Below the pieces are notes generated by a model. That model searched no databases. It saw only the letters and a list, made by a program, of their open reading frames with translations, and was not told where the DNA came from. From Nonomuraea gerenzanensis (lineage in GTDB: Bacteria > Actinomycetota > Actinomycetes > Streptosporangiales > Streptosporangiaceae), in contig NZ_CP084058.1 of assembly GCF_020215645.1 (NCBI RefSeq), forward strand, positions 7,378,001-7,442,000: DNA of 64,000 nucleotides, read 5' to 3'. Shown here one piece after another: positions 53,773-64,000 of the stretch. Position 1 is the first letter of the stretch, and each line of letters starts with the position of its first letter. Both the position numbers and the translations under genes were made by a program.

Positions 53773-56049
53773 TCATCGTTGCGTCGGCTCCGGCGGCGCG
53801 GGGACGGCCTCCCGCGCGGGGACGTCCTCCCCGGCGGCACCGGCTTCCCGCGTGGCACCGGCTTCCCGCGCGGCACCGGCTTCCCGCGCGGCGCCGGGCC
53901 GGGCGGGCGGCACCACGTGCACCTGGGCCGCCCCGATGTCGAAGTACAGCCCGACCAGCTTCAGCCGCCCGGCCGCGACCTGCTCCTCGACCCGGGGGTA
54001 GGTCCGCAGGTTCTCCAGTTGCTGCTGCACGTTCTGCCGGCAGAGCAGTTCGAGCGCGTCGTCCGGGCGTTCGCCGCCGAGCCGGGTCAGGCTCGCGTCG
54101 CCGTGCCGGAGCCAGCGGCGCAGCTGGGGCAGGTCCGCCGTGGTCGCGGGGCCGCTGAGCAGGGCGGCCATCGCGCCGCAGCCGGAGTGGCCGCAGACCG
54201 TGATGGTGTGCACGTTGAGGACGCGGGTGGCGTACTCGATGGCGGCGGCCACCGAGTCGTCGCCCGGCGTGGCGCCCGCGCGTGGCACCAGGTTGCCGAT
54301 GTTGCGGACGGTGAACAGGTCGCCGGGGCCGCTGGAGGTGATCAGGCTCGGCATGATCCTGGAGTCGGCGCAGGTGATGAACAGATGGGTGGGCTGCTGC
54401 TTGGCGGCCAGCTCGGTGAGGATGGGCCGCACGAGCGGCGCCGTACGGCGGTGGAACTCCTCGGCGCCCCGGGTGAGCCGGCATTCCGCGGCCGTGGCGG
54501 AGTCGGGACGGCGGTGCGTCCACGGCAGCCACCAGCGCCCCGACGGCTTGGGCGGGCTCTTGGCGGGGAACATGCGGGCGCCGCCGGCCGCCAGCGTGTA
54601 CCACTCGTCGTGCAGCTCGTCGATGGTGACGGTGCCGCCCAGGCGTTCGTGGTCGAGCCGCCAGCTGTGGAGCGCGTCGAAGGCGGCGTTGTCCATGAAG
54701 TCGATGTTGAGGTCGAGGTCGACGGCGGTGCCCGCCGGGATGGCGCGCAGCTCCTGGGTCAGCCGGGGCACGCCGAGGAAGGTGAGCGAGCCGGAGACGG
54801 TGGCGTGCAGGCGGCCGTTCGGCTCCTCGCGCTTGTCGACCGTGATCCTCGTCAGCCGCCGCAGCGCCAGCAGCGCGGCCAGGGCGAGCCCGGCCAGCAC
54901 GCCCTCGGCCAGCCCGACGAGGATCACGCCCGCCATGGTCACCACGTAGACGGAGATCTCGTTGTGTCCGTGCACCTTGCGTACATGGCCGAGGCTGATC
55001 GTCCTGATGCCGATGAAGACGAGCAGGGCCGCCAGCGCCTCCATCGGGATGAGCTGGATCGTTCCACCGAGGCAGAGCGCGAACAGCAGCACCCAGACCC
55101 CGTGCAGGATCGCCGACCGGTGGCTGCGGGCGCCGGCCCGGACGTTGGTGGTGCTGCGCACGATCACGCCGGCCACCGGGAGACCCCCGAGCAGGCCGCT
55201 GACCACGTTGGCCACGCCCTGCCCGGACAGCTCGCGGTCGAGGTCGGCGCGGCGGCCCGAGTGCTGGCCGTCGATCGCCACGCAGCACAGCAGCGACTCG
55301 GCCCCGGCCAGCAGCGCGATCAGCAGCATGCCGCCGGCCACGTCGTGCCAGTCGCCCTGCGGCAGCTCGGGCGGCGCCCACTCGGTGATCGCGCCGGTCA
55401 GGTCGATGCGGGTGACGTTCCAGCCGAAGACCCAGGCGGTGCCGGCGGCCACGAGCAGCGCGGCCAGCGGGGCCGGGACCGCCCGGACGTGCTTGGGCAG
55501 CCGCCCCCAGACCAGCATGACCGTGACGGTGAGCACGCCGACCATGACCTTGTGGCCGTGCATGTCGATGATCTGGCCGGGGAGCTGGGTCAGGTTGGCC
55601 AGCGCGGAGTGCTGGGGACTGCCGCCCAGCACCACGTGGAGCTGGGCGAGCGCGATGATGATGCCGACGCCGGCCAGCATGCCGTGCACGACGGCGGGCG
55701 AGACGGCCAGCGCCGCCCGCGCCGCCTTGAACACGCCGAGCAGCACCTGCACGGCGCCCGCGAGGATCGTGATGACGCAGGTGGCGCGCCAGCCGTAGGT
55801 GTGCACCAGGCCCGCGATCACCACGGTCAGGCTGGCCGTCGGCCCGCTCACCACGACGGCCGAGCCGCCCAGCCAGCCGGCGACGATGCCGCCCACGGCG
55901 GCGGCGACCAGTCCCGCCGCCAGCGGCGCCCCGGCGGCCATGGCGATGCCCAGCGACAGCGGCACCGCGATGAGGAAGACCACCAGTGACGCCGGAAGAT
56001 CGTATCTGAGAGTTCGTATGAAGCTACTCTCTGTAGTTGTTGTGCTCAT
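53773..56049 (-). CDS. SulP anion transporter fused to beta-carbonic anhydrase
   Basis: The 758-residue protein has a SulP transporter domain with about 10-12 helices (1-400; motif GGLPVAGVIVRSTTNVRAG). A cytosolic STAS-like domain follows (about 410-500, NGRLHATVSGSLTFLGV). Last is a beta-carbonic anhydrase with C560-A-D562-S-R564, H621 and C624 (HSGCG), all zinc ligands and the Asp/Arg dyad being present. The fusion fits bicarbonate uptake coupled to CO2/bicarbonate conversion. The last 45 residues contain AREAG repeats. ATG 56049 has AAGGTG upstream. Confidence 0.94.
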   Translation of the reverse strand: MSTTTTESSFIRTLRYDLPASLVVFLIAVPLSLGIAMAAGAPLAAGLVAAAVGGIVAGWLGGSAVVVSGPTASLTVVIAGLVHTYGWRATCVITILAGAVQVLLGVFKAARAALAVSPAVVHGMLAGVGIIIALAQLHVVLGGSPQHSALANLTQLPGQIIDMHGHKVMVGVLTVTVMLVWGRLPKHVRAVPAPLAALLVAAGTAWVFGWNVTRIDLTGAITEWAPPELPQGDWHDVAGGMLLIALLAGAESLLCCVAIDGQHSGRRADLDRELSGQGVANVVSGLLGGLPVAGVIVRSTTNVRAGARSHRSAILHGVWVLLFALCLGGTIQLIPMEALAALLVFIGIRTISLGHVRKVHGHNEISVYVVTMAGVILVGLAEGVLAGLALAALLALRRLTRITVDKREEPNGRLHATVSGSLTFLGVPRLTQELRAIPAGTAVDLDLNIDFMDNAAFDALHSWRLDHERLGGTVTIDELHDEWYTLAAGGARMFPAKSPPKPSGRWWLPWTHRRPDSATAAECRLTRGAEEFHRRTAPLVRPILTELAAKQQPTHLFITCADSRIMPSLITSSGPGDLFTVRNIGNLVPRAGATPGDDSVAAAIEYATRVLNVHTITVCGHSGCGAMAALLSGPATTADLPQLRRWLRHGDASLTRLGGERPDDALELLCRQNVQQQLENLRTYPRVEEQVAAGRLKLVGLYFDIGAAQVHVVPPARPGAAREAGAAREAGATREAGAAGEDVPAREAVPAPPEPTQR

Positions 56050-56207
56050 GCGGCACACCTTAGAGCGTCGAACCACGAACGTTCAGACATGAGCAGATCT
56101 CGTCGGGCGTCGTCGCGCGGCGGAGCCACTCATCGCCGACCGGGTCAGCGCGGCGCCGCGGGACGCGGGCGTCACGGTGGCGGCGACCGCACCGCCCGGG
56201 ACGGCCC

Positions 56208-56936
56208 TCAGGCGACCTTGGCGGAGCTCGCCTTCCAGGTGTTGCAGGCGCCCGGCTTGCCCGACTTGTAGCCCTGCTGCGACCAGTAGAGCCGGTTCGC
56301 GGTCTTGCCGTGGAACCTGTTCTTCCAGAACTCCGGCACCTTGACGACCGGCTTCCAGTCCTTGACCTGGCGCCCCACGGCCTTGGCCGACACGCCGACG
56401 AAGCAGTCGAGCTGCAGGTAGTAGCGGCGGTTGTGCTCGTTCATGACGGTCTCGGAGGCGTCGTTCTCCAGCCCCCACCACGCCTCGCCGATGCCGGTCT
56501 GCCCGGTGACCACGCCGCCCCACGTCCGGGTGATGGAGGTGAACACGGTCAGGTCGTTCTTGGCCTTGATCCAGTCGTCGGCCAGGCGGACGCGGAGCTG
56601 CGTGGCGCAGATCTCGGAGAAGGAGCCGGCGACGTCCATGCCGGTGGAGCAGGACTCCTTGTCGTCGGCGTCCTTGAAGACCACCTTGACCGGGACGAAG
56701 CCCTTGATGGCCGGCTTCCAGGCCGCGTTGAGGCAGCCGACCAGTCGGGTGATGTACTTCCTGGTGGAGGCGGCACTGGTGCCCTTGGTCAGCTTGCAGG
56801 CGACCTTGGGGAGTGCGGCCGCCTTGTAGAGGGCGTTGTGGGTGAGGTCGGGGGCGCCCTTGACGGGCTCGGCGAGCGCCGGAGCGCAGAGGAGGGCCAG
56901 GCCCATGGCCGTCCCGGCCGATAAGCGGATGATCAT
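56208..56936 (-). CDS. secreted protein resembling actinobacterial neutral zinc metallopeptidases but lacking HExxH
   Basis: The 242-residue product has a signal peptide (1-22) and paired cysteines. It ends NTWKASSAKVA after GKPGACN, an ending I associate with a secreted HExxH metallopeptidase-like family of Streptosporangiaceae. LNAAWKP near residue 70 also fits that family. Where the zinc motif HEYGHHVQ should be, this protein reads RTWGGVVTGQTGI, so no HExxH exists anywhere in the chain. It is probably a non-catalytic paralogue. The family link is from motif memory and needs a profile search. Confidence 0.65.
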   Translation of the reverse strand: MIIRLSAGTAMGLALLCAPALAEPVKGAPDLTHNALYKAAALPKVACKLTKGTSAASTRKYITRLVGCLNAAWKPAIKGFVPVKVVFKDADDKESCSTGMDVAGSFSEICATQLRVRLADDWIKAKNDLTVFTSITRTWGGVVTGQTGIGEAWWGLENDASETVMNEHNRRYYLQLDCFVGVSAKAVGRQVKDWKPVVKVPEFWKNRFHGKTANRLYWSQQGYKSGKPGACNTWKASSAKVA

Positions 56937-60175: not shown

Positions 60176-61075
60176 ATGAAGAAGCGCACCCTCGCTGTCC
60201 CCGGTCTGGCCGTCGCCACGGCCATGATCGCCGGCTCTGTCACCCCGGTCTCCGCGTCGTCGAGCACCCCCGTGTATCTCGCCGCCTCCCTCGCGGGCAA
60301 GAACGAGGTCCCCGCCCCCGGCACGAAGGCCGGCGACGGGGACGGGAGCGCGCTCGCCGTGTTCCGCATCCACGGGCAGCGGGTGGACTACGCGGTGCGG
60401 TGGCAGAACGTGAAAGCGCCCAGCGGGTTCCACATCCACCGGGGCGCGGCGGGCGAGAACGGTGAGGTCAGGATCCCGTTCTTCGCCACGGCGCTGCCCG
60501 CCCAGCTGCACGCGGTCAAGGGCACCGTCATCGTCAAGGACCGCAACCTGCTCGGCCGCATCCTCGGCAACCCGCAGAACTGGTACGCCAACCTGCACAA
60601 CGCCGAGTTCGGCGGCGGCGCCGTCCGCGCCCAGCTGCACCGCGTCCGGCCGGTGTCCATGGAGTCGGTGCTGGCCCACGGCTTCGGCCACACGCTCACC
60701 GCACGCGCCGACGGCCGGCAGGAGGTCCGCGCCCCCGGCACGAAGGTCGGCGACGGCAACGGGCGCGCGGCCTGGCTGGTGCAGCCGGAGGGCCGGCGCG
60801 TGTGGTTCGCCGCCGCCTGGAAGAAGATCGCGGCCCCGACCGCGGCGCACATCCACCGCGCGCCCAAGGGCAGCAACGGCCCCGTCGTGGTGCCGTTCTT
60901 CGAGGCCAAGGGCGGGTTGCCGGCCGGCGTCACCGGGCTCGCGGGCAGCGCCACGACGTCCGCGGCCGTCTCCCGCCGCATCTGGAACAACCCCGGGAAC
61001 TGGTACGCCAACCTGCACAACGCCAAGTTCCCCGGGGGCGCGGTACGCGGCCAGCTCTACCGAGGGGACTGGTGA
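60176..61075 (+). CDS. secreted protein with two CHRD domains
   Basis: The 299-residue protein has a signal peptide (about 1-28) and two CHRD domains (about 32-155 and 175-299). Each has the pattern GKNEVPAPGTK / GRQEVRAPGTK, then GFHIHRG / AAHIHRA, and ends NPxNWYANLHNAxFxGGAVRxQL. CHRD domains are beta-folds known from chordin; the role in bacteria is not established. AAAGGGCC lies upstream of ATG 60176. The two domains share the typical AHIHRG metal-binding-like histidines. Confidence 0.92.
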   Translation: MKKRTLAVPGLAVATAMIAGSVTPVSASSSTPVYLAASLAGKNEVPAPGTKAGDGDGSALAVFRIHGQRVDYAVRWQNVKAPSGFHIHRGAAGENGEVRIPFFATALPAQLHAVKGTVIVKDRNLLGRILGNPQNWYANLHNAEFGGGAVRAQLHRVRPVSMESVLAHGFGHTLTARADGRQEVRAPGTKVGDGNGRAAWLVQPEGRRVWFAAAWKKIAAPTAAHIHRAPKGSNGPVVVPFFEAKGGLPAGVTGLAGSATTSAAVSRRIWNNPGNWYANLHNAKFPGGAVRGQLYRGDW

Positions 61076-61122: not shown

Positions 61123-61842
61123 CTACTGATGGTGGGTCCTCGCGTACTCGTCCCTTCTTGCCTCGCATTCGTCAACCGGCGCTCGCCGCCGGCAGGTCTG
61201 ATAGACCGCCGTCGCGGGCACGCAGACATCCCCGCTTACGGTGACCCCCCAGGCGTATCGGCAATATTCGTATTCGATGTTTCCCTCGACGCAGATGCTC
61301 CGCTTCGTCACCACACCTCCTGCGTCGGGGCTGCGGCAGTCGGCGTAGACGGGCACGGCGTCCCTGCAGATCAGCCCGGCCCCTCGGTAGACGCACGCTT
61401 CACGCACCGCGGGCGACTCACACTGCCGGTCGGTTCTTCCAGCCAACCGGCAGTCCAGATAGGTCTTGGCGACAGCGGCGGCGCCCGTGACGCACGGCTT
61501 CCTGCCCCTTCCGACCGCGTCGGCCTTGCGGCAGTCGGCGAGAAACGCCTTCACGTCGCGGTCGAGTGCGGCTGCGCCTGCGCAATCTTTCTCCTTGAAG
61601 CCGGACGCCTTGCAGGACCTGTAGCGCGCACGCGACACGTCCGGCACTCTCGGCATCGCTCCGTGGGCCGGGCTCTGCGTCCTCTGCGCCGCAGTCCCGG
61701 CCGTGGCCCGCTGGTGAACCGGTGTGCCACCACTGGGCGGGCTGGGCAGCGGGCAGACGAACCCGATGCCCAGCAAGGCCACCAGCGCGATGCCGCCGCT
61801 CAGCCCCGCCCGGAACCACTTCGAGTGCCGAGTCCACCTCAA
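61123..61842 (-). CDS. membrane-anchored Cys-repeat protein, homologue of the RHS tip
   Basis: The 239-residue product has one N-terminal hydrophobic helix (about 12-32), suggesting an uncleaved anchor or a signal. A Cys-rich domain (about 72-230) follows. Thirteen cysteines there align in order and spacing with the tip of the RHS protein encoded directly upstream; for example RSICVEGNIEYEYC against RSVCIEGNPQYVDC. The start is TTG 61842, supported by GGGAGG 6 nt upstream, 14 nt after the RHS stop, so the two genes are co-transcribed. Function unknown; the position fits an immunity, chaperone or decoy gene, but this is inference. Confidence 0.75.
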   Translation of the reverse strand: MRWTRHSKWFRAGLSGGIALVALLGIGFVCPLPSPPSGGTPVHQRATAGTAAQRTQSPAHGAMPRVPDVSRARYRSCKASGFKEKDCAGAAALDRDVKAFLADCRKADAVGRGRKPCVTGAAAVAKTYLDCRLAGRTDRQCESPAVREACVYRGAGLICRDAVPVYADCRSPDAGGVVTKRSICVEGNIEYEYCRYAWGVTVSGDVCVPATAVYQTCRRRAPVDECEARRDEYARTHHQ

Positions 61843-61856
61843 CGAGAGCCTCCCAC

Positions 61857-64000
61857 TCAGGCGGGACGGACGGTGTCGGTGCAGACGGATCCTATATCGC
61901 CGGCGATGTCGGTACAGACCCTCTTGACGATGAGCCCGCTGCCGGGAGAGCTCAGCCGCGCCTTCTTCCAGTTGGCATTGATATCGGCGTTCTTGTTCAC
62001 CATGTTGAAAATCTTGATGCCGCTGTCGATGAGCCCGCAGACCGTGCTCGCCGCCGTCTCAGCCGGTTTGGCCACAGGTATGTGAGACAGGAAATCCTTC
62101 ACCTGACAGACTCCCGGTGTCGTGAGGTCGGACTTCTTGTAGATCTCCGACGAGAACCACGCCTGGACCGACGAGTAGTACCTCTCGCACGTCTTGGACT
62201 TGTTCTTGGTCACACAGGGCCGTTCTTGGGGGGTGGAGTCGCAGTAGTCCGACTTCGGGTTGGACATGCACCAGTAGATTCCATCGGCCAGCTTTCCGCA
62301 GTCGCCGACCTTCTTCGTGGCCTTGATGCAGTCGAGTTGCACAACACCGGCGGCGAAGCAGTCCCCGAGCGAGCCCTTGACCTTCAGGAAACATCGGACC
62401 GTGTCGTTGGCCACCTCCTTGCAGACGGAGTCCAACTGGTCGTAGCCGCTGCGATCACCCAGGTTCTTGAGCCCGCCCTGGTAGGAGCAGACCGCGTAGA
62501 CCTCGCCGACCACCGCGCATTGAGACTTGGAGCCGTAGTTCTCGCCGTCGACCCGGCACCGTTCGTAGGCTCCGGTCGAACCGACGCAGGTGTCGTGGGC
62601 GTTGCTGTAGCGATGCATGCAGTCGACGTACTGTGGATTGCCTTCGATGCACACGGAACGAGAGATCGACTTGTCCGACCGGCAGGAGTCATAGGCCTCG
62701 ATGGAACTCGTGCAGAGGCTGCCTCCACCCTGGGTGACGCAGGCCTCCTTGACGCCGGCGCCTTCGCAGCTGCCCGATTTCTTGCCTCCCAGGCGGCAGG
62801 ACGTATACGCCACCCCGCCGTCCGCGCACGCGTTGTCGTCGTTGAGACCCTTCTTGCAGTCGACGACGAACGCCTTCGTCTCCTTGGAGATCTTCTTCTC
62901 CGCGTCGCAGTTGAGCCCGTTCTTGTTCTTGAAGCCCTGGTTCGCGCAGGCCTTGTACTCCTTCTCCTTCTCCTTCTGCGTCTTCGTGGTCTTCGTGCTC
63001 GCCTTCTTCGTCGTCTTCTTCGTCGTCGTCTTCTTCTTCGTCGCGTGCCCGTCCGGGTCAACTGCGGTCAGCGGGTTGTCGTTGGCGTAGGTGTAGCGGT
63101 TGAGCTGCACGCTGGGGTCCGGGGCCTGGCCGAGAGTGTCCCGGCTGACGAAGCTGCCGGTGCTGGGCTGGTACCAGCGAGCGGCCATGTTCACCTTGCC
63201 CGTGTCCGGGTCGGTGTAGCCGCCCTGGTAACCCAGGTCGTGAGCCGCCCCTGTACGGGAGAGCACCTCGCCGAAGGGGTCGAAGGCGACCGAATCGGCC
63301 AGGGACGTGCTGCCTGCCCCGAAGGTGCCGATCAGGTCACCACGCAGGTCGCAGAAGGCCAGCCGCCCGCCCGTGCCATCCGACAGTCCGAGCGTGCGGC
63401 CCAGCGCGTCGCGGCCGAAGGTCGACGTCACCACGCCGGTGCCGCCGTCGGTCACCGCCGTCAGGTTGTTGCTCACACCGTCATAGACCATCCGGGTGCT
63501 CTTGCCGCCTGCGGTACGGGTCTCCACCCGGTCCAGGGCGTCATATTCGTAGACGACGGCGTCGTCGTTGATCAGCCGGTCGAAGGCGTCGAACTTGGTC
63601 CGGCGCACGATGCCGGCGGAGTCCTCGGCCAGGGTGCCACGGGCGGTGTACGTGTAGGTGTGCCCATCGCCCGAGATCAAGCGGTTGCGCTCGTCGTAGG
63701 TGAAGGTCTTGTCGCCGGCCTTGACCCGGTTCCCTGCCGCGTCCCACTCGTAGCCGGTCTTCGTGCCGTCCGGCGCGGTCCATGAGGTCAGCCGGTTGGA
63801 CCAGTCGTAGGTGTAGACGTTCCGACCCGCTCCTGTCGTGCCCGCGGTCGTCTTGGACGTCAAGTTGTCGTCCAAGTCGTACTCGTACCCGATCGAGGCG
63901 ATGGGGCTTCCCGCAGAGGTGGTGAGCTGGTCCTCGGTGAGCCGGTTCAGCTCGTCGTAGCTGTAGCTGCGCCGGGCCCCGGACGCGCCGTAGGCCATCG
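61857..64000 (-). CDS. RHS-repeat protein, C-terminal part with Cys-repeat tip (5' end outside window)
   Basis: The visible 713 residues open with YD repeats (YSYDELNRL, YEYDLDDNL, YTYDWSNRL). They reach the RHS core terminus GGYTDPDTGKVNMAARWYQP and then NRYTYANDNPLTAVDPDGH, the usual boundary before a variable tip. A Lys/Thr-rich hinge (KKKTTTKKTTKKASTKTTK) follows, then about 370 residues rich in cysteine with recurring Y-x2-C ... C-x(4-7)-Y-x2-C units. The last about 120 residues have fewer cysteines. I recognise no toxin family in the tip. Such proteins deliver C-terminal toxins between cells (established for RHS/WapA); here the activity is unknown. The sequence is less GC-rich than its neighbours, a sign of transfer. 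Confidence 0.88.
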   Translation of the reverse strand, partial: MAYGASGARRSYSYDELNRLTEDQLTTSAGSPIASIGYEYDLDDNLTSKTTAGTTGAGRNVYTYDWSNRLTSWTAPDGTKTGYEWDAAGNRVKAGDKTFTYDERNRLISGDGHTYTYTARGTLAEDSAGIVRRTKFDAFDRLINDDAVVYEYDALDRVETRTAGGKSTRMVYDGVSNNLTAVTDGGTGVVTSTFGRDALGRTLGLSDGTGGRLAFCDLRGDLIGTFGAGSTSLADSVAFDPFGEVLSRTGAAHDLGYQGGYTDPDTGKVNMAARWYQPSTGSFVSRDTLGQAPDPSVQLNRYTYANDNPLTAVDPDGHATKKKTTTKKTTKKASTKTTKTQKEKEKEYKACANQGFKNKNGLNCDAEKKISKETKAFVVDCKKGLNDDNACADGGVAYTSCRLGGKKSGSCEGAGVKEACVTQGGGSLCTSSIEAYDSCRSDKSISRSVCIEGNPQYVDCMHRYSNAHDTCVGSTGAYERCRVDGENYGSKSQCAVVGEVYAVCSYQGGLKNLGDRSGYDQLDSVCKEVANDTVRCFLKVKGSLGDCFAAGVVQLDCIKATKKVGDCGKLADGIYWCMSNPKSDYCDSTPQERPCVTKNKSKTCERYYSSVQAWFSSEIYKKSDLTTPGVCQVKDFLSHIPVAKPAETAASTVCGLIDSGIKIFNMVNKNADINANWKKARLSSPGSGLIVKRVCTDIAGDIGSVCTDTVRPA

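Follow-up and report, generated by a model that had tools for sequence, protein, structure and literature searches.

A cysteine-array RHS protein of Nonomuraea gerenzanensis and its tip homologue with a predicted membrane anchor, a probable toxin-immunity pair

The window analyzed in this study is a stretch of 64,000 nucleotides (G000:C1:7378001-7442000) within the 12-Mb genome of Nonomuraea gerenzanensis (G000), a soil bacterium that produces the glycopeptide A40926. At one end, it contains the 3′ part of an RHS/YD gene on the minus strand and, directly downstream, a small partner gene. Our results indicate that the two genes probably constitute a secreted RHS polymorphic toxin of the Streptosporangiaceae and its immunity gene, the partner repeating, behind a predicted membrane anchor, the first half of a cysteine array in the variable tip of the toxin. 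The tip is probably directed at related bacteria, and the partner probably shields its producer by imitating it. Three observations carry this reading: the tip and the partner are homologous, the class of the tip is linked with that of the partner, and partners are kept where the toxin is reduced to a piece. A preliminary description of the region had proposed three options: a toxin with mimic-type immunity, a surface adhesin with a spare tip, and an orphan cassette.

The partner is a homologue of the RHS tip with a predicted membrane anchor

The RHS/YD gene passes the window edge by about 14 kb (L005:858-16583/16628), and the full-length protein consists of 5,241-5,256 amino acid residues (aa), depending on the start chosen. 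The part of the RHS core in the window matched RHS_repeat of Pfam (E 3.4e-17), and YD_repeat_2x (TIGR01643) and Rhs_assc_core (TIGR03696) of NCBIfam were above the cut-off in the RHS protein. The N-terminus, RWAARMAVIMVMALLPSFLTLEGMAVTAEP, has the look of a Sec signal when judged by eye, and the protein is predicted to be secreted. The tip past DPDGH has 395 aa and 28 Cys. Its translation, Cys spacing, and alignment with other tips gave the order of a Lys/Thr hinge, which differs between relatives, a C-x9-C (CX9C) helix array, and a C-terminal domain with the conserved pattern C..YYS..QAW ... C ... C ... PGxG. All tips have a common C-terminal layout with a GxG-like end motif after at least two Cys, and the CX9C partners do not have it, as judged by eye.

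The partner gene starts with TTG at position 61842 on the same strand, 14 nt from the RHS stop codon (61857-61859), and the intervening sequence, GTGGGAGGCTCTCG, contains GGGAGG 6 nt from the TTG. The positions, start codon, and ribosome-binding site given in the preliminary description were correct. The product of 239 aa contains 15 Cys and a single hydrophobic N-terminal segment behind an Arg/Lys-rich start, and the positive-inside rule predicts that its array lies outside the cell. A hydrophobic N-terminal stretch, with a Kyte-Doolittle value over 19 residues (KD19) of at least 1.69, was found in 28 of 29 partners, the exception being one database entry in which the start is placed late. 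In the AlphaFold2 (AF2) model of the window partner, residues 71-237 were helical, with ten-residue means of the predicted local distance difference test (pLDDT) of 77-94, and the N-terminus was unordered.

BLASTP aligned the tip and the partner with 53 identical residues out of 172 (31%; E=2e-25), and 13 Cys were aligned when counted by hand. Because Cys-rich repeats can mimic homology, the partner was also shuffled with every Cys fixed. The tip/partner alignment score was 245, compared with a maximum of 74 in 400 such shuffles (z=23), and with every Cys fixed this result means that the homology is not just a matter of Cys spacing. The earlier suggestion of an N-terminally anchored homologue with 13 aligned Cys was therefore upheld, the anchor being a prediction. 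The partner corresponds to the N-terminal half of the array in the tip and does not have the C-terminal domain, the predicted effector part. When 10 tips and 8 partners were aligned, 24 columns were common to at least nine tips and at least seven partners, and 14 of these were Cys. The non-Cys residues common to the tips and partners of classes A, B, and D, which are described below, were D62, E94, R129, E134, R164, and Tyr positions. Neighbouring tip/partner pairs in G118, G131, G045, and G033b had z values of 15.6, 11.8, 11.1, and 8.2, respectively, in the same Cys-fixed comparison. Two class-E lipoproteins and class-E tips, which are not neighbours, gave values of 29-30, and four off-class combinations gave values of 1.0-6.4.

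Tip and partner classes largely go together

Five tip classes (A-E), assigned by eye, follow one junction according to the tip alignments. Several class-E and class-B loci stop at a contig edge, the tip of G047 is out of frame with any RHS core, that of G050 is broken, and G033b is a tip fragment.

In class A, the anchored CX9C copy was the next gene in all five cases (G000, G027, G020, G045, and G118), a count of RHS genes with context that leaves the class-A tips P0015 and P0016 outside. The class-A partners of G118 and G132 were lipoproteins as judged from the lipobox. In class B (G131, G001, and the tip fragment of G033), an anchored CX9C protein of a second family came next in 3/3, and these partners were found by the tip profile A4 with E values of 7.4e-13, 1.2e-8, and 3.4e-16 and were aligned within positions 105-241 of 360. 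The genome search thus showed that the combination of an RHS gene and a Cys-repeat homologue, first noticed in the window, recurs. At G001:C1:5166471-5167259 (L152), one in-frame TGA was noted in the RHS core upstream of the otherwise open tip and partner.

The next gene differed in the other classes. A protein of 59-87 aa with two transmembrane (TM) segments came next to six of the eight class-C tips, at a distance of -13 to +17 nt (L062, L064, L061, L125, L060, and L124). The C-terminal domain contained one to three hydrophobic windows (KD19 of at least 1.6) in all eight class-C tips and none in seven of seven class-A tips. The two-TM proteins are likely to provide immunity to membrane-active class-C tips. 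An N-anchored WD40-like protein came next to both class-D tips (G033a and G050) and to two of three class-E tips (G038 and G030). These genes are located at L022:10570-11913, L057:4781-5596, L128:3600-4970, and L127:3005-4408; the partners of G033a, G038, and G030 passed the Pfam cut-off for WD40, and that of G050 was below it. They are candidates for a beta-propeller immunity family. The third class-E tip, in G046, was followed by a gene for a membrane protein of 396 aa. This protein (L126:9131-10321), which adjoins the class-E tip, and a 401-aa membrane protein (L019:3197-4402), which is in a row of displaced cassettes, were 73% identical, and the Pfam search yielded only sub-threshold matches for both. 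The partner class therefore largely changes with the tip class, the WD40-like partners going with two classes, D and E.

Partners are kept where the RHS gene is reduced to a piece

We examined 22 further partner loci, namely 21 without an adjacent intact RHS gene and that of G045. In four of them (G132, G303, G308, and G305), a C-terminal tip piece of 48-99 aa was located upstream of an open partner frame, and no RHS core was found in the stretches fetched. Three of the four pieces comprised the extreme C-terminus of the tip, and that of G303 was an inner C-terminal piece with a stop. At 17 of the 22 loci, neither tip nor core was found in the stretch fetched; G052 and G022 have class-A partner genes with no tip or core within 18-20 kb.

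Two cassettes stand in a row in G132: a class-C tip end with a two-TM gene, followed by a class-A tip end with a class-A lipoprotein. The two-TM gene was related to the partner of G091 (E 3e-9), and the class-C piece was clear over roughly its final 30 aa, the more extended match by tblastn being gapped. G045 carries an intact class-A tip and partner, then a class-B tip piece and, by our own reading, a broken class-B partner; further on, it encodes a protein 73% identical to the class-E partner of G046. Class-E-like CX9C lipoproteins of about 350 aa were found at 11 loci (L066, L067, L130, L131, L133, L135, L137, L138, L139, L141, and L142), with the lipobox LAGC, LTGC, or LTAC identified by eye. 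These stand-alone lipoproteins are possible decoys or orphan immunity proteins.

Tip pieces without a core beside open partners are the signature of toxin-immunity cassettes, which makes immunity the most likely function of the partner. In our view, the stumps and cassettes are the strongest evidence for this assignment. The orphan cassette of the preliminary description fits several relatives and does not fit the window, where the RHS gene and the partner are both open.

The cysteine repeat is a tandem CX9C array

The Y-x2-C pattern of the tip had been taken as an unrecognised repeat that does not match familiar toxin families. The scans agreed with the latter part in giving no toxin-family match above a cut-off; as to the former, the pattern can now be identified from its spacing as a tandem array of predicted C-x9-C helices, in which disulfides are also predicted. 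The window tip contains 11 C-x9-C spacings, compared with a mean of 1.0 and a maximum of 6 in shuffled sequences, and 13 tips contain 9-15 CX9C spacings each, compared with at most 6 in 2,000 shuffles per tip.

The CX9C pattern is best known from mitochondria. When an eight-tip profile was compared with PDB sequences at E values up to 10, 23 distinct sequences were matched, with a best E value of 0.0026. Twenty-two of them were mitochondrial twin-CX9C sequences, mostly NDUFA8; NDUFA8, NDUFB7, NDUFS5/NIPM, and COX17 are CHCH/twin-CX9C proteins. Pfam gave six matches in 4 of 12 tips (COX17, NDUF_B7, Pet191_N, and CHCH), all under the curated cut-off (COX17, for example, 19.9 against 24.9 bits), and CHCH-type matches were found neither for the window tip nor for the 12 partners scanned. 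One of ten scrambled tips with Cys fixed also touched a CX9C model (E 0.028), in a control that did not extend to the PDB search. A scrambled tip doing so places the likeness at the level of the motif, likely a helix hairpin, and we do not claim descent. The profile search thus yielded a likeness to CHCH/twin-CX9C proteins without a Pfam match above the cut-off. Compared with the mitochondrial CHCH proteins, with which they have the C-x9-C pattern in common, probably in the form of helices, the tips carry up to 15 tandem CX9C spacings and occur in bacterial proteins predicted to be secreted.

Distribution in the family

When the partner was used as the query, 8 of 54 genomes of the genus gave matches. 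The partner gene was among the matches in six (G000, G020, G022, G027, G045, and G052), and only the RHS tip was matched in G001 and G033. Profile A4, which also detects partners, matched 33 of 341 genomes of the family, in 6 of 68 genera. In a sample of 394 genomes drawn from the whole class, it matched five, the window's own among them, and all of these belong to the same family. An 11.85-Mb record of N. gerenzanensis, NZ_LT559118.1, contains the tip, the partner, and the RHS core piece with 100% identity; it is filed as "plasmid I" with 10 annotated features and is evidently a chromosome.

The 11 cores of the genus that came closest to the RHS core of the window (69-100% identical, itself included) all had CX9C tips, and the next listed cores were at most 63% identical to it. 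Among 19 loci of other RHS cores, the junction was present in 18, and their tips, some cut by the locus end, contained 4-16 Cys. Pfam scanning of 10 of these 18 tips revealed a toxin or pretoxin domain above the cut-off in three (Ntox44, Pput2613 deaminase, and PT-HINT), which supports the polymorphic-toxin reading. These comparisons indicate that the CX9C tips belong to a dedicated RHS subtype and that the other RHS proteins of the genus bear ordinary tips.

Origin of the partners

A tree was built from 10 tips and 8 class-A partners, and one long branch (99/99, 98% of bootstrap trees) set the partners apart from the tips. One ancient copying event from a tip would therefore suffice to explain the class-A partners. 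The finer order was unsure and the branches were long. The partner frame was open in the eight class-A genomes examined. The 11 class-E-like lipoproteins scored 100-129 bits with the best class-E tip and at most 51 bits with any other class, suggesting that the likeness between class-E lipoproteins and tips is a second, separate one.

Proposed mechanism and opposing observations

We propose that the tip is a disulfide-braced C-x9-C helix array followed by an effector domain, which would most likely act on the outer face of the cytoplasmic membrane of the target cell. The partner would lie outside the cytoplasmic membrane, held by its anchor, and would repeat the first half of the array but lack the effector domain; from there it would protect the producer. 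It may pair with the array of the incoming tip in a dominant-negative co-assembly, which is our first choice, or it may occupy the binding partner of the array on the cell surface. Harm to membranes by the C-terminal domain would be a good case for class C and a weak one for class A. A wider proposal, which we regard as somewhat less likely than not, is that such immunity genes arose at least twice from a tip by losing the effector domain and gaining an anchor, that the CX9C array is the recognition module, and that paired or competing arrays decide between friend and foe outside the cell.

Several observations weigh against a toxin-immunity pair or against parts of this proposal. No tip matched any toxin family above the cut-off in the Pfam and NCBIfam scans of the tips, and the AF2 model of the tip was poor (pLDDT 46.7), too poor for docking. 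The C-terminal domain of class A is weakly hydrophobic (maximum KD19 of 0.61-1.51 in seven tips), so that a membrane pore is less likely for the window's class than for class C. The next genes were read from open reading frames (ORFs) and third-position GC, without a gene finder, and no small partner was found beside the class-C tips of G006 and G120. The tip and partner of G001 gave a z value of only 3.5. The partners form one clade apart from the tips, so there is no tight cognate co-variation: the G118 partner scored 64 with its own tip and 88 with that of G020, its own tip thus not being the closest, and the class-A partners scored about equally with G033a, a class-D tip that is followed by a WD40-like gene. 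The similarity in class B was weaker and mixed, with 3 of 10 partners scoring best with a class-B tip. No RHS tip or core was found in the stretches fetched around the 11 class-E-like lipoproteins, so that immunity is only a possible function for them.

Alternative explanations

The partner could also protect by masking a receptor, the array binding a receptor that the anchored copy occupies in place of the toxin. This explanation, which keeps the immunity function, is in our judgement rather unlikely. The non-Cys residues common to tips and partners across three classes are what a common ligand site would give, and the partners resemble their class rather than their own tip. Lipoproteins that mask a receptor are known from phage superinfection exclusion. 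However, the receptor is only postulated, the shared residues may be structural, and a long branch separates the partners from the tips. An adhesin or kin-recognition system, in which the tip would make homotypic contacts and the anchored copy would serve as its receptor on sister cells, with no toxicity, is improbable. Both proteins have the same array and are predicted to be outside the cell, and the RHS-type teneurins of animals are adhesion receptors (PMC13018210). Nevertheless, the two-TM, WD40-like, and 396-aa membrane proteins take the same place as the tip class changes, open partner genes occur beside core-less tip pieces and in stump-and-partner cassettes, and sister RHS cores bear toxin domains. 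The adhesin with a spare tip of the preliminary description leaves the swapping of partners and their retention without an RHS gene unexplained.

There is a slim chance that the small protein is a chaperone or an assembly or disulfide-folding helper of the tip, as a co-directional gene 14 nt downstream with the same repeat might be. A helper is expected to go with its client, so the partners kept without an RHS core argue against it: class-A genes occur in G052 and G022 away from any tip or core, and one is open in the core-less G132. A recent, accidental, and functionless 3′ duplication would account for the partner being a partial copy of the tip, but is extremely improbable, given that the partner is only 31% identical to the tip and yet its frame is open throughout class A, that the partners form one clade on a long branch (99/99), and that common residues extend beyond Cys. 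A toxin with mimic-type immunity is therefore the best supported of the three original options; the pair recurs, the partner class largely follows the tip class, and stumps lie beside open partners.

Comparison with known systems

Like the pair described here and its relatives, the RHS/YD and contact-dependent growth inhibition (CDI) systems (PMC3150448, PMC3482391) combine a variable tip behind a conserved junction with an immunity gene placed directly downstream, and displaced tip pieces occur with their partners. Orphan C-terminal/immunity modules have been shown experimentally in CDI and RHS systems, and orphan immunity genes are functional (PMC3150448). The window tip differs from these systems in having a long CX9C array without a toxin-family match and an immunity candidate homologous to the tip. 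In the covered text of PMC3482391, most immunity tables of which lie outside this scope, no immunity protein is described as homologous to its toxin and no WD40 protein is described. RHS immunity by a copy of the tip was not found in the literature searched.

EsxX/ExiCD, TspA/TsaI, and the RHS effector pair Tse5/Tsi5 consist of membrane-depolarising toxins and membrane immunity proteins, and the ExiCD immunity genes also occur as orphans in toxin-less strains (PMC12744356). With a membrane toxin acting from outside and membrane-bound immunity, these systems are best matched by the class-C tips and their two-TM partners. Their immunity proteins are located in the membrane, and the text of PMC12744356 covered here does not describe them as toxin copies, whereas the window partner is predicted to have a single anchor and a large outside domain. 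In the wtf drivers of fission yeast, the antidote has sequence in common with the poison, which it neutralises through homotypic co-assembly together with trafficking (PMC7591262). This is a working precedent for protection by likeness. The wtf system is eukaryotic and intracellular, and its two proteins, largely the same in sequence, come from a single gene (PMC7591262), whereas here two bacterial genes encode proteins with 31% identity that are predicted to be outside the cell.

If the self-likeness proposal is true, neutralisation by likeness would become a bacterial strategy too, beyond the yeast wtf drivers. The pair would then illustrate how an immunity gene can originate in its own toxin, and the stand-alone class-E lipoproteins would act as decoys for toxins of foreign origin. 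As a rule, immunity proteins bear no relation to the toxins that they block. With the tip, a long array of predicted CX9C disulfide helices is added to those of bacteria, and the several partner solutions (CX9C copy, two-TM, and WD40-like) for tips of one C-terminal layout are a natural set for comparing mechanisms.

Features of the region and neighbouring genes

Table 1. Features of the RHS tip and partner region (window positions)
Feature	Position	Strand	Basis
3′ part of RHS/YD core, ending at junction NRYTYANDNPLTAVDPDGH	63045..64000	-	Pfam, NCBIfam, full ORF in L005
RHS tip, 395 aa, 28 Cys	61857..63044	-	Translation, Cys spacing, tip alignments
Lys/Thr-rich hinge, about 28 aa	62961..63044	-	Translation
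CX9C array of tip	62190..62960	-	11 CX9C spacings; tip/partner alignment
Array part copied by partner, tip residues about 33-186	about 62487-62948	-	Tip/partner alignment
Tip C-terminal domain, predicted effector part, absent from partner	61857..62189	-	Boundary by eye; conserved pattern
14-nt intergenic gap; GGGAGG ribosome-binding site at 61849-61854	61843..61856	-	Sequence
Partner gene, 239 aa, TTG start, predicted immunity protein	61123..61842	-	BLASTP, Cys-fixed shuffles, AF2
N-terminal TM anchor of partner, approx. residues 12-33	61744..61809	-	Kyte-Doolittle 19-residue maximum 2.17
CX9C array of partner, 14 Cys	61126..61623	-	Cys spacing, AF2 model, tip/partner alignment

Convergent with the partner gene, positions 60176-61075 on the plus strand encode a protein with two stretches matching the CHRD domain. 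Farther away, on the minus strand, positions 56208-56936 encode a protein of 242 aa, part of which matched a family of putative neutral zinc metallopeptidases (E 1.8e-6), and a 767-aa ORF at positions 53773-56076 appeared by eye to be a fusion of a SulP-type transporter and a carbonic anhydrase.

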